Of a stretch of 64,000 bases of DNA, positions 1,083-62,112 are shown piece by piece (position 1 is the stretch's first letter; each line of letters begins with the position of its first letter). This stretch comes from Pseudomonas guariconensis (GTDB lineage Bacteria; Pseudomonadota; Gammaproteobacteria; Pseudomonadales; Pseudomonadaceae), in contig NZ_JAMYBK010000002.1 in assembly GCF_024127895.1 (NCBI RefSeq), positions 310,001-374,000 of the forward strand. The letters are read 5' to 3'. A program made the position numbers and the translations under genes. The notes beneath the pieces are model-generated. The model worked only from the letters and a program-made list of their open reading frames with translations. It did no database searches and was not told where the DNA came from.

Positions 1083-4000
1083 AGGCGTTTTTCAGTTTTG
1101 TCATTCGCTGGGTGATCCCGGTACTGGGCCTGCTGGCCCTGAGCCTGATCATCTGGTTCGTCGGCCCGCTGCTCGACTGGCTGGTGCCGGCCGCACCGCG
1201 CTGGGTGCTGATCGTCCTGCTGTTCGCGGCGTGGATCGCCTACCGTGTCTGGCGCATCGTCCAGGCCCGTCGCCAGGCAGCCAAGGTGATGGAAAGCCTG
1301 GCCGCCGAGACCGCCCCAGACCCGGCCAGCGTAGCCACCGCCGAGGAGCTGGCGACCCTGCGCCAGCGCATGGACGAGGCCCTGGCCCTGCTGAAGAAAG
1401 CGCGCCTGGGCGGCGACGAGCGGCGCAACCTGTACGAGCTGCCGTGGTACGTGATCATCGGCCCGCCCGGCTCGGGCAAGACCACCGCGCTGGTCAACTC
1501 CGGCCTGCACTTCCCCCTGGCGGCGCAGATGGGCGCCGGGGCGATCCGGGGCGTAGGCGGCACGCGCAACTGCGACTGGTGGTTCACCGATCAGGCTGTG
1601 CTGCTCGACACCGCCGGGCGCTACACCACCCAGGACAGCCATGCCCAGGTGGACAAGGCGGCCTGGCTGGGCTTTCTCGACCTGCTCAAGAGCCAGCGCT
1701 CGCGTCGGCCGATCGATGGCGCGTTCATCGCCATCAGCCTGTCCGACCTGCTGCTGTGCAGCGATGCCGAGCGCGCCGCCCACGCCGTGGCGATCCGCAC
1801 GCGTATCCAGGAGCTGTACACCCAGTTGGGCGTGCGCTTCCCGATCTACCTGATGCTGACCAAGCTCGACCTGCTGCCGGGCTTCATGGAGTTCTTCGAC
1901 AACCTGGGCAAGGAAGAACGTGCTCAGGTCTGGGGCATGACCTTCCCCCTGGACGACGGCCAGCAAGGCGATGGCCCGCTGGCCCAGTTCAGCGGCGAGT
2001 TCGCCTTGCTCGAGCAGCGTCTCAACCAGCGCCTGGTCGAGCGCCTGCAACAGGAGCGCGATCCAGCCCGGCGTGACCTGGTGTACGGTTTCGTCCAGCA
2101 GTTCGCCGCCCTGCGCGGCAACCTGCAGGTGTTCCTCGACGGCGTCTTCAAGCCCAATGCCTTCGAAGAGCGCGCGCTGCTGCGCGGGGTGTACTTCACC
2201 AGCGGAACCCAGGAAGGCAGCCCGATCGACCGGCTGATCGGCAGCATGGCCCAGAGCATGGGCCTGGACCGTGCGCAGTTGGCGCGCCAGAGCGGCACCG
2301 GGCGCAGCTATTTCATCGAGCGGCTGTTCACCGCCGTGGCGTTCGCCGAGCGCGGCCTGGTCGGCTGCGACCCCAAGGTCGAGCGGCGGCGCAAGTGGAT
2401 CGCCCGTGGCGCCCTGGCCCTGAGCGTGGCCCTGGTACTGGTGGTCGGCACCCTGTGGACCCTGAGCTACCGGGCCAACCAGGCCTACATCGCCGAGGTG
2501 GACAACCGCCTCAAGCCCCTGGGCCGCAGCGTCCAGGAACTGAGCCCGGCCCAGCGCGAGGTCATCGAGGTGCTGCCGCTGCTCAACGCCGTGCGCCGCC
2601 TGGCCGACGACCCGCCGGCCTGGGCCGAGGGCCTGGGGCTGTACCAGGGCGACATGCTCGAAGGCGAGTCGGCCAGCGTCTACCGCAAGCTGCTGATCGC
2701 CATCTTCGCCCCGCGCCTGGTCACCCGCATCGAGGAGCAGCTGTATGCCGGCGGCCCCTCCGACTACCTCTACGAGGGCCTGAAGGCCTACCTGATGCTG
2801 GCCGACGGCGAACACTACGACGCCGAGTTCATCAAGGCCTGGATCAGCCTCGACTGGGAGCGCAACCTGCCCCGCGACTTGGCGCCCGACCAGCGCCAGG
2901 CCCTCGACCAGCACCTGCAGGCGCTGTTCGAGCGGCGCCCGCCCAATGCCCGGCTGGACCAGCGCCTGATCGACGACATGCGCCGCCAGTTGCAACAGCT
3001 GCCGGTGGCCCAGCGCGTCTACGACCGGGTCAAGCGCCAGAAGCTACCGTCCGGGGTCGCCGATTTTCGCATCAGCGAGGCCGCCGGGCGCGACGCTGCG
3101 CTGGTGTTCCGGCGCAAGAGCGGCAAGCCGCTGGACGAACCGCTCCCAGGGCTGTTCACCGTCGAGGGTTACCGCAAGGCCTTCCTCGCCGCCAGCCTGG
3201 CCCACAGCACGACCCTGGCCGAGGAACGCTGGGTGCTTGGCCGTGAAGTGGGCGAGGCGGGCGATGCCAAGCGCCTGGCCGATGACGTGCGCCAGCTGTT
3301 CTACCAGGACTACATCCGCCACTGGGATGCCCTGCTGGCGGACCTGGACTTCGTGCCCATCACCAGCGTCGGCCAGGCTGCCGACGTGCTGCGCGTGCTG
3401 TCTGGCCCCACTTCGCCCTTGAAGAAACTGCTCCAGGCGGTGGCCAGGGAAACCGACCTGCAACAACCGACCACCCTCGACCAGGCCCAGGCCAAGGTCG
3501 AGCAGGCCGGGGTCGACCAGCTACGCCAGCGCCTCGGCGGCCTGCTCGGCGATACGCCGGTGCCCGGCGAGCGCCAGGCAACGCGCGAGGTCGACCCGGT
3601 GACCGCGCACTTCGCCGAACTGGCGGCCCTGGCCGACGGCGGCGAGGGCGAGCCCGCCGCGCTCGACGGCCTGCTCAGCGACCTCAACGCCTTGTACGTG
3701 CAGGTCAGCGCCATGGTCGGCGCCAGCGGCGAGGCCCTGCTGGGCGAGGCCAAGAACCAGGTCCAGGCTGCCTCCCAGCGTGTGTCCCTGGGCGCGGCGC
3801 GCCAGCCGAAGGTGGTCCAGGAACTGGTCGGCTCGGTGGTCGGCTCGACCAACGCGATCGTCATGGGCGGGGTGCGCAACCAGCTCAACGCGGCCTGGAC
3901 CAGCGAGGTGGTGAGCGTCTATCGCCAGTCGTTGAGTGGCCGCTACCCGCTGTCAGCCGGCAGCCCACGCGACGCGACCCTGGAAGACTTCGGCCAGTTC

Positions 4001-16039: not shown

Positions 16040-16124
16040 CGCCGGCAAGCCGGCTCCCACATTGTCCGTGCAAACCGCATCATATGTGGTCGCCGCGGTC
16101 CCTGTGGGAGCCGGCTTGCCGGCG
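16040..16124. repeat. inverted REP pair
   Basis: Two copies of the Pseudomonas REP core face each other: GCCGGCAAGCCGGCTCCCAC at 16041-16060 and its reverse complement inside 16103-16124, each flanked by further GC hairpins. It sits between the convergent genes moaB and narL and occupies most of the intergenic space. Confidence 0.85.
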
Positions 16125-57761: not shown

Positions 57762-58868
57762 ATGACGTCGTACACCTCCGGGAATCCAACCCAGAACCGC
57801 ACAGCCCCCCAGTCCATCGGCTTTCTCCTGCTGGACAACTTCACCCTCATTTCCCTGGCGTCCGCGGTCGAGCCCCTGCGCATGGCCAACCAGTTGTCCG
57901 GTCGCGAGCTGTACCGCTGGCACACCCTGACGGTCGATGGCGGCCAGGTCTGGGCCAGCGATGGCCTGCAGATCACCCCCGATGCGGCCATGCACAGCGC
58001 GCCGCCGATGGATACCGTGATCGTCTGCGGTGGCGTCGGTATCCAGCGCTCGGTGACCCGTGAGCACGTCACCTGGCTGCAGGCCCAGGCCCGCCAGTCG
58101 CGCCGCCTGGGTGCGGTGTGCACCGGCAGCTGGGCGCTGGCCTGTGCAGGCCTGCTCGACGGTTTCGACTGCAGCGTGCACTGGGAATGCCTGGCGGCCA
58201 TGCAGGAGGCCTTCCCGCGGGTCAACATGAGCACCCGTCTGTTCACCCTCGACCGCAACCGCTTCACCAGTTCCGGCGGTACCGCGCCGCTGGACATGAT
58301 GCTGCACCTGATCAGCCGCGACCATGGCCGCGAACTGTCGGCGGCGATCTCCGAGATGTTCGTCTACGAGCGCATCCGCAACGAACAGGATCATCAGCGC
58401 GTACCGCTCAAGCACATGCTCGGCACCAACCAGCCGAAGCTGCAGGAGATCGTTGCGCTGATGGAGGCCAACCTGGAGGAGCCGATCGACCTGGACGAGC
58501 TGGCCGTGTACGTCTCGGTGTCGCGGCGCCAGCTCGAGCGCCTGTTCCAGAAGTACCTGCACTGCTCGCCGTCGCGCTACTACCTGAAGCTGCGGCTGAT
58601 CCGTGCGCGTCAGTTGCTCAAGCAGACGCCCATGTCGATCATCGAGGTGGCGTCGGTGTGTGGGTTCGTGTCCACGCCGCACTTCTCCAAGTGCTACCGC
58701 GAATACTTCGGCATTCCGCCGCGTGACGAGCGTGTCGGCTCCAATACCGCGCAACAGGTGGCGATGATGCCGATCCCGCAGGCCATGGCCCTGTCGCCCC
58801 ATGGTGGGCCGCTGGGGGCACTGAGCCAGGCGCGCAACGAGTCGACGTTTGCCAGTGTGAGGCTCTGA
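57762..58868 (+). CDS. gbdR: AraC-family regulator GbdR
   Basis: Activator of glycine betaine and dimethylglycine catabolism genes. In 368 residues, about 15-200 form a DJ-1/PfpI (class I amidotransferase-like) ligand domain keeping the nucleophile-type C120 in AVCTGSWALA. Residues about 235-335 form the AraC DNA-binding domain (VYVSVSRRQLERLFQKYLHC, ASVCGFVSTPHFSKCYREYF). A C-terminal tail of about 35 residues follows. The start ATG 57762 follows GAGGAGAAA. In P. aeruginosa GbdR turns on cbcXWV and the dehydratase gene, consistent with this context. Confidence 0.94.
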   Translation: MTSYTSGNPTQNRTAPQSIGFLLLDNFTLISLASAVEPLRMANQLSGRELYRWHTLTVDGGQVWASDGLQITPDAAMHSAPPMDTVIVCGGVGIQRSVTREHVTWLQAQARQSRRLGAVCTGSWALACAGLLDGFDCSVHWECLAAMQEAFPRVNMSTRLFTLDRNRFTSSGGTAPLDMMLHLISRDHGRELSAAISEMFVYERIRNEQDHQRVPLKHMLGTNQPKLQEIVALMEANLEEPIDLDELAVYVSVSRRQLERLFQKYLHCSPSRYYLKLRLIRARQLLKQTPMSIIEVASVCGFVSTPHFSKCYREYFGIPPRDERVGSNTAQQVAMMPIPQAMALSPHGGPLGALSQARNESTFASVRL

Positions 58869-58890
58869 GCTGTTGGGGCCGCCAATCAGG

Positions 58891-59058
58891 CTAATGCTGT
58901 TCACTTAAGCAATTGGGGCCGCCTTGCGGCCCTTCGCGGGCAAGCCCGCTCCCACAAGTACGCTGCAAATGCACGACCCTGTGGGAGCGGGCTTGCCCGC
59001 GAAGGGCTGCAAGGCAGCCCCAATCGATGTCACATCGGACTTAAGTGAACAGCATTAG
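58891..59058. mobile_element. 168-bp MITE-like element carrying a REP pair
   Basis: The ends are perfect 19-bp inverted repeats, CTAATGCTGTTCACTTAAG (58891-58909) and CTTAAGTGAACAGCATTAG (59040-59058). They are flanked by identical 9-bp direct repeats CCAATCAGG (58882-58890 and 59059-59067), a target duplication typical of a transposition event, and 9 bp is common in the IS4 family. Inside is an inverted REP pair (cores GCGGGCAAGCCCGCTCCCAC and GTGGGAGCGGGCTTGCCCGC). It has no coding capacity, so it would need a transposase in trans. The right duplication includes the stop codon of the next gene. Confidence 0.85.
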
Positions 59059-59062
59059 CCAA

Positions 59063-59320
59063 TCAGGCGCGTTTGTTGAACTGCGCCAACGCCGGCAACA
59101 GCTGCTTGTCGATGGCCTGGCGCACGGCCGGGAGGATGGTGGCGCTGCCGGTGTACATCTGCTCGACCATGCCGCGCAGGGCCCGGGCATTGGGTTCGGT
59201 CAGGCCGCGCACGGCGACCTCGCAGGCCTGTTCGGCACTGGCCCCGGCCGGCATCTCGAAGCCCAGGGCGCGCAGTTGGCCCAGCAGGTCGTCCTGATCG
59301 ATCAAATCCGCATGCATCAT
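59063..59320 (-). CDS. small conserved hypothetical protein
   Basis: An 85-residue protein starting MMHADLIDQDDLLGQLRALG after AGGGA. I recognise no domain. It looks helical, with no signal peptide or membrane segment, and ends QFNKRA. A gene of this kind sits between gbdR and the carnitine genes in related genomes, as I recall. The MITE-like insertion lies directly at its 3' end, and the stop codon (59063-59065) is inside the 9-bp duplicated target, so the protein is not altered. Confidence 0.68.
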   Translation of the reverse strand: MMHADLIDQDDLLGQLRALGFEMPAGASAEQACEVAVRGLTEPNARALRGMVEQMYTGSATILPAVRQAIDKQLLPALAQFNKRA

Positions 59321-59548
59321 GGCTGTTGTCCCTTTTATCGCTAAGAGAGTGCTGCTGTGATTCACGACCGATTCTGTGTCCACGGCGACATGCCCGCAAG
59401 GGCAGTGTGTCGCAATGGCTGCTTTGGCTAAGAACAGGTCGTTCCCGGCTAAATCGACGGCCCGCAGAGGCCGCACACTGGCGTCATTCACGGCAACGGA
59501 GGGTTTGGTCACCCTCGCTCATGCAAAGTGGATGTTGCTCGCTCTTGG

Positions 59549-62034: not shown

Positions 62035-62112
62035 CGCCGGCAAGCCGGCTCCCACAGGGCGTGGTGAGCCCTGGTGCGTGAAGCGCCTGGGGGAGCTGGC
62101 TTGCCGGCGATG
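62035..62112. repeat. inverted REP pair between caiX and cdhC
   Basis: GCCGGCAAGCCGGCTCCCAC (from 62037) faces a slightly diverged GGGGGAGCTGGCTTGCCGGC (from 62089). Being inside a probable operon, it may stabilise the upstream caiX message and lower downstream expression. Confidence 0.8.

Follow-up and report, generated by a model that had tools for sequence, protein, structure and literature searches.

A probable IS4-subgroup MITE carrying a REP doublet between two convergent genes of Pseudomonas guariconensis

The element and its neighbouring genes

In the stretch of Pseudomonas guariconensis DNA that we analysed (64,000 nucleotides, hereafter the window), a non-coding element of 166 bp (58892-59057), whose borders were set by comparison with its copies, lies between two convergent genes. 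The product of the left-hand gene, gbdR, scores 658 bits against NCBIfam family NF052371 (cut-off 480, E 3.1e-198), and the 85-residue gene on the right, queried as the 149-residue open frame 59063-59512, matched no Pfam or NCBIfam family. The features of the locus are as follows.

57762-58868, plus strand: gbdR, AraC-type regulator of choline metabolism (NF052371), left neighbour, pointing at the element
58881-58891: left copy of the target duplication, GCCAATCAGGC, identical to the right copy at 11 of 11 positions and including the outer base of the 19-bp repeat
58892-58909, plus strand: left 18-bp terminal inverted repeat, TAATGCTGTTCACTTAAG, fitting the IS4-subgroup end signature -AATR--------WTW---- (accessible text of PMC2266710)
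58912-58956, plus strand: left REP arm, 45 nt, with its tail outward and its head (CCCACA) facing the loop
58957-58979: loop between the REP arms, 23 nt, common to other genomic copies and 33 nt long in the 176-bp form
58980-59024, minus strand: right REP arm, 45 nt, inverted
59025-59039: right subterminal spacer with a small palindrome, GATGTCACATC, common to copies
59040-59057, minus strand: right 18-bp terminal inverted repeat
59058-59068: right copy of the 11-bp duplication, holding the minus-strand stop codon 59063-59065
59063-59320, minus strand: 85-residue gene, right neighbour, pointing at the element

The perfect inverted ends, the CCAATCAGG direct repeats and the REP pair that an earlier note on this DNA had described are all present, but the 19-bp ends and 9-bp duplication given there are corrected here to 18 bp and 11 bp. 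The outermost position of the 19-mer is occupied by C, G, A or T in different copies, and because this base changes from copy to copy along with the flank it was assigned to the target and not to the element, which rules out the combination of longer ends and shorter duplication. The ends in the window had looked like a longer inverted repeat because the target is itself palindromic (GCC-N5-GGC, here GCC-AATCA-GGC). A search of the window with the 19-mer (pattern CTAATGCTGTTCACTTAAG, up to three mismatches) returned these two matches alone, where 0 were expected from 100 shuffles.

The two REP arms are 96% complementary, and the element together with its duplications is predicted to fold into a single hairpin (-149.5 kcal/mol; shuffles -66.0, z -19.8) that could act at the 3' ends of mRNAs. 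Two microRNA-type matches to this hairpin in Rfam fell below the gathering scores and were taken as chance.

As had been proposed from the sequence, the stop codon of the 85-residue gene (TCA on the plus strand) lies inside the right duplication copy and the end of the gene is unaltered, its reading frame being unchanged because this copy retains the stop. Once the insert and one duplication are removed, the stop codons of the two convergent genes are only 17 bases apart, so that a hairpin target at this place necessarily touches a gene end. That the stop codon falls within the duplication is incidental, since these elements generally target hairpins, in most cases intrinsic terminators.

The gbdR locus in relatives

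The ends of the element were absent, at up to four mismatches, from the gbdR loci of all 29 relatives compared; among these, L137 and L139 could be aligned only on the side of gbdR, and L141 contains a run of N. The outcome that the earlier note had named as refuting its reading, namely no other copies of the ends together with the same 168 bp in every relative, was therefore not found. The comparison with relatives for an empty site, which it had proposed, is no more than supportive: the ends are missing, but a clean single GCCAATCAGGC site was not seen, as the aligned pieces of these loci are 68-92% identical and the gap is too diverged to reveal a clean single 11-mer.

Free REP pairs without IS4 ends are found in the gap 3' of gbdR in L132-L135, L146-L148, L151, L155, L159 and L160. 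By eye, many of the 18 gaps inspected hold such pairs; the gap therefore appears to draw repeats in general, as an insertion-prone spot.

Copies of the element in the genome

The 5.34-Mb genome, a draft of 87 contigs, contains 37 matches to the 19-mer at up to three mismatches (1 in the reversed control), and pairing and removal of duplicates left 14 elements with both ends, each at a different site. Their sizes are 96 bp (one copy), 164-167 bp (five), 176 bp (seven) and 245 bp (one). Direct repeats with at most two mismatches flank 12 of the 14, and the REP pair is kept in 13, the 96-bp copy having lost the REP cores. These copies, with their different flanks and their duplications, uphold the proposal that a unit bearing a REP pair has transposed. 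The loop and the subterminal spacers are common to the copies, beyond the REPs alone, and the unit has therefore moved whole. In its length, which leaves no room for a transposase gene, and in its terminal inverted repeats, target duplications and dispersed paired copies, the element has the properties of a MITE.

Further pieces of the element lie at the edges of contigs C9, C26, C27, C30 and C44; those at the ends of C30 and C44 have the same GCCAAATGGC beside opposite ends and fit one element. A variant terminal repeat, CTAATGCCGGTCAGTTAAG, bounds a 198-bp pair (C6:66552-66749) and occurs as a single end at C19:48049, and these probably represent a further family of IS4-type MITEs in this genome.

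Assignment to the IS4 subgroup

The accessible text of De Palmenaer et al. 2008 (PMC2266710) characterises the IS4 subgroup by the end signature given above, direct repeats of 10-13 bp, full elements of 1400-1650 bp and a YREK motif; neither "terminator" nor "MITE" occurs in its main text. Every specified position of the signature agrees with TAATGCTGTTCACTTAAG. We collected 97 unique paired elements, while 76 loci gave no pair. Duplications with at most two mismatches were present in 78 of the 97, and 77 of these 78 are 10-13 bp long (12 bp in 36, 11 bp in 28, 13 bp in 9, 10 bp in 4 and 9 bp in 1); the 19 elements with more mismatches were excluded from the target counts.

Other genomes contain same-ended elements of 1420-1422 bp (L061, L127, L130 and L193). 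The protein of L061, the one of these four for which domains and motif were tested, matches NF033592 (274 bits, cut-off 115), Nterm_IS4 and DDE_Tnp_1, and contains the motif Y-x2-R-x3-E-x6-K (Y-R-E-K). L061 is without a clear duplication (the best is 9 bp with 5 mismatches), and L127 lies at a place in G064 that has split matches to the L061 protein and one stop. The window element thus shares the end signature and direct repeats of the subgroup, and L061 fits it in ends, size and motif; unlike members of the subgroup, the window element lacks a transposase gene and has a REP pair inside. To judge from its ends, the length of its duplication and the full-length elements with the same ends, the window element is a derivative of the IS4 subgroup.

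A search of this genome for the ends with and without a transposase, as the earlier note had suggested, succeeded for the copies described above but detected no IS4 transposase, either by Nterm_IS4 (PF13006) or with the L061 protein (E 1e-20), in the 87-contig draft, so that mover and cargo are not seen side by side. Among 398 sampled genomes of the genus, the exact 18-mer is present in 84 and a match to the L061 protein in 56, with up to four candidates scored per genome. Stop-free relatives of the L061 protein with at least 83% identity are encoded in ten genomes, nine over positions 1-443 and G214 over 1-422. All ten belong to the 84 with the 18-mer, and the other 74 have the ends without such a mover, again with up to four candidates scored per genome. 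Relatives of 65-66% identity are found in G005 and G222, both of which lack the 18-mer. The 20-base end pattern also occurs in Marinomonas, Paraglaciecola, Nitrincola, Neptunomonas and Pectobacterium, often near contig ends, as is expected of multi-copy elements.

Hairpins and terminators as target sites

Joining the flanks of the elements with duplications of at most two mismatches allowed 78 Pseudomonas sites to be rebuilt, many of which have the form AAAA-GCCC-CG...CG-GGGC-TTTT, that of an intrinsic terminator able to act in both directions. About the duplication centre a mean of 4.01 of 7 Watson-Crick pairs is formed (n = 78), compared with 1.85 at 3,900 random positions in the same loci; this dyad symmetry peaks at the centre and declines to either side, to about 2.2 of 7 two half-bases away. 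The joined sites fold at a mean of -18.1 kcal/mol, against -13.1 for random positions. With a fixed centre, at least five of seven pairs are formed in 27 of the 78 sites. Because a fixed centre understates odd/even shifts, we also allowed a shift of half a base with its own control, which gave 45 of 78 sites and 215 of 4,032 random positions. An A- or T-tract lies beside 73 of the 78 sites (632 of 4,032 random positions) and both tracts are present at 42 (44 of 4,032), although the random positions, here and above, are mostly coding DNA and overstate the contrast with intergenic DNA, a bias of which the centring is independent.

Within the P. guariconensis genome itself, at least five of seven pairs are formed at only 4 of 12 sites and TTT is present at all 12. 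The site in the window makes a weak terminator: it has four of seven pairs, with TTT on the right but AAA missing on the left, and it extends into the end of a coding sequence. Instead of terminators, some copies occupy REPs (L112, L116, L167 and L205, by eye) or other sites. The orientation of neighbouring genes at the 48 sites with enough flank was 23 convergent, 21 tandem and 4 divergent, as called by a crude codon-position rule that makes these counts indicative only. These elements thus target hairpins, for the most part two-way intrinsic terminators, of which the window site is a weak example.

The IS4 of Escherichia coli has 18-bp ends similar to these and produces 11-13-bp duplications; it has reportedly been found inserted in a terminator-like attenuator, and its reported target, AAA-N20-TTT, would fit a terminator. 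The accessible text of Tobes & Pareja 2006 (PMC1525189) describes insertion sequences with REPs as their target, among them ISRm22 of the IS4 family. Both these and the window element target palindromes outside genes, but the former insert into REPs, whereas the window-type element carries a REP pair and targets mostly terminator-like hairpins and some REPs.

The REP cargo

REP cores of the window type number 370 in the genome at up to two mismatches (0 in the reversed control), and 26 of them sit inside the 14 paired elements. In most of the other doublets, among the 40 of 403 candidates that were scored, the alignment is confined to about positions 15-137 of the 166 and does not include the ends. 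At the 100 exact REP-core places listed, cores within 130 bases of each other formed, by eye, 13 free pairs with heads inward and 4 with heads outward; the cargo therefore has the usual local arrangement. Free head-inward REP doublets of related type also lie elsewhere in the window (16042-16122 and 62037-62107), and the cores of the former, at 16042/16103, are spaced by 61 bases.

The cargo of the window element has the attributes of a REPIN, in that it consists of two inverted REPs of an abundant host type, forms a hairpin and is a doublet that also occurs free. REPINs, or REP doublets, for which RAYT was proposed as the mover, are described in the accessible text of Bertels & Rainey 2011 (PMC3116915). 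The likeness extends to the genome, which has an abundant REP type and one Y1-type (RAYT-like) transposase (C31:6256-6567, L100; open frame of 161 residues), with three variant REP cores in the 3.3-kb locus of this gene. Unlike REPINs as described there, the window doublet is bounded by the ends of a DDE transposon and by target duplications, and its loop and flanks are shared across copies.

Among same-ended elements shorter than 700 bp we compared 86, a non-random set that comprises 14 from this genome and others from relatives that were taken for one exact end and partly from 60 stretches chosen among the matches listed. REP heads in both orientations were counted in 51 of the 86 (26 head-in and 25 head-out), by fixed words that include L048 and L201, each by eye a single short hairpin, and miss decayed pairs such as L177. 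The subterminal sequences of these 51 fall into 17 classes (0 links in 3,000 shuffled comparisons), and several REP types are represented in their cargo. The comparison suggests that REP pairs were acquired more than once, although the figure of 17 classes may be inflated by fast divergence of the spacers; for the lineage of the window element we infer a single founding capture.

The other 35 short elements hold other palindromic cargo, remnants, or sequence resembling the interior of the full-length element (L103, by eye). A cluster of 16 members of the CCCTCTCCC type has the same ends and a multi-hairpin cargo (L036, L051, L065, L078, L101, L102, L123, L161, L163, L194-L198, L200 and L214). 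Larger same-ended elements of 209-935 bp were also observed (L043, L180, L206 and L207, and by eye L035, L120 and L126), most of which hold a palindrome that by eye resembles TACATATCCATTTCTGCGG, L206 being linked by similarity only. Two elements of 99 bp, L111 and L175, have no REP-head pair and possess perfect duplications of their own; a REP pair is therefore not required for transposition. In plasmids, partial REP-like matches were confined to a single record, where even the best match stops short of the ends; phages yielded none.

In size, inverted ends and frequent location between convergent genes, the window-type elements resemble the repeat families R0-R200 of P. fluorescens, some of which were called MITE-like (Silby et al. 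2009, PMC2718517). The accessible text of that paper describes no IS4 ends or REP cargo for these families ("IS4" has 0 occurrences). R6 of strain Pf0-1 (177 bp, 34-bp inverted repeats; PMC2718517), likened here by description only, may be a published relative.

Origin and movement of the REP-bearing elements

It is possible that a RAYT put a REP pair into one resident IS4-type MITE and that the composite was then amplified, the frequency of REP cargo in these MITEs reflecting only that REPs are the commonest insert in such genomes; we regard this account as evenly poised between right and wrong. The occurrence of both head-in and head-out pairs and of 17 flank classes accords with it, as does the 72-bp L119, which has no REPs and a poor duplication and by eye resembles the ends of the REP-bearing L104. 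L119 may, however, equally be a deletion product, as L111 and L175 appear to be of L174, and chance would place a doublet in some 5% of 170-bp stretches, far fewer than observed, by a rough estimate that takes at most about 185 doublets and assumes 0.6 Mb of intergenic DNA.

REP pairs might instead have been captured again and again, or kept, because they favour the MITE, either as a stable spacer of transposable length or as a hairpin standing in for the terminator that is broken by the insertion. The single strong hairpin predicted for the element with its duplications is consistent with such an advantage, as are the palindromic nature of the other cargo (clusters 1-3) and the crudely called gene orientations at the target sites. 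Elements without a REP pair nevertheless transpose as well (L111, L175 and L114), and ascertainment bears on the comparison, the relatives having been sampled solely for elements with one exact end; we hold this advantage to be possible, if somewhat doubtful. The reading in which REP pairs are passive inserts is put slightly ahead of it.

It is very improbable that the REP pair is itself mobile by means of RAYT, a tyrosine transposase, and that the 18-bp ends are merely the outer part of an extended doublet family. The RAYT-like gene with variant REP cores in its locus and the hundreds of REP cores in the genome would be in keeping with such mobility, but the 18-bp ends are immediately flanked by duplications of 10-13 bp, whereas, according to the accessible text of PMC2817692, larger duplications are not made by the IS200/IS605 (Y1) family. 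The same ends also enclose transposase genes and cargo of other kinds and are missing from most of the free doublets listed (among the 40 of 403 candidates scored), and perfect duplications flank L111 and L175 in the absence of a REP-head pair. Chance inverted repeats beside a REP pair, with no element behind them, are refuted by the many copies and by the null expectation for the window.

The element is very probably an IS4-subgroup MITE with a host-type REP doublet, moved in trans and inserted at dyad-symmetric hairpins. An IS4-type DDE transposase, presumably supplied in trans, would bind the 18-bp ends and move the whole 164-176-bp unit, REP doublet included. Insertion would proceed by a staggered cut of 11-13 bp centred on a dyad-symmetric hairpin, most commonly at the loop of an intergenic two-way intrinsic terminator. 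Because such a cut would duplicate the hairpin core, each side would keep a copy, and in the window the right-hand copy also includes the stop codon with which the neighbouring gene ends. Terminators would presumably be preserved, and neighbouring transcripts might be affected.

Significance for REP dispersal

MITEs, IS4 elements, REPINs and insertion sequences that target REPs are already known. No description of an IS4-ended MITE with REP cargo was found in the literature searched, which is mostly outside subscription journals, and the same literature yielded none of terminator-loop targeting by the IS4 subgroup.

The spread of REPs is usually attributed to RAYT transposases, which are difficult to observe in the act of transposing. 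An element that has distinct ends and duplications and carries a REP pair constitutes a separate route, and an ordinary DNA transposase, in addition to a dedicated one, can apparently disperse REP repeats. The additional route envisaged in the earlier note stands as far as transposition of the unit is concerned, given the 14 copies, and it may be of quantitative importance for REPs; in this genome 26 of the 370 REP cores lie inside the paired copies. More tentatively, IS4-type MITEs may constitute in Pseudomonas a second, DDE-driven means of REP-doublet dispersal that combines repeated uptake of the host REP type with insertion guided by structure to the loops of two-way terminators; there, the duplicated hairpins and the REP hairpins would keep gene ends working at low cost to the host. 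MITE-borne REP pairs account for some of the REP pairs at gene ends, and models of REPIN copy number should treat such copies apart. At terminator hairpins an IS4-type transposase may recognise either a cruciform or the symmetry of the sequence, and the duplicated hairpin may still terminate transcription.
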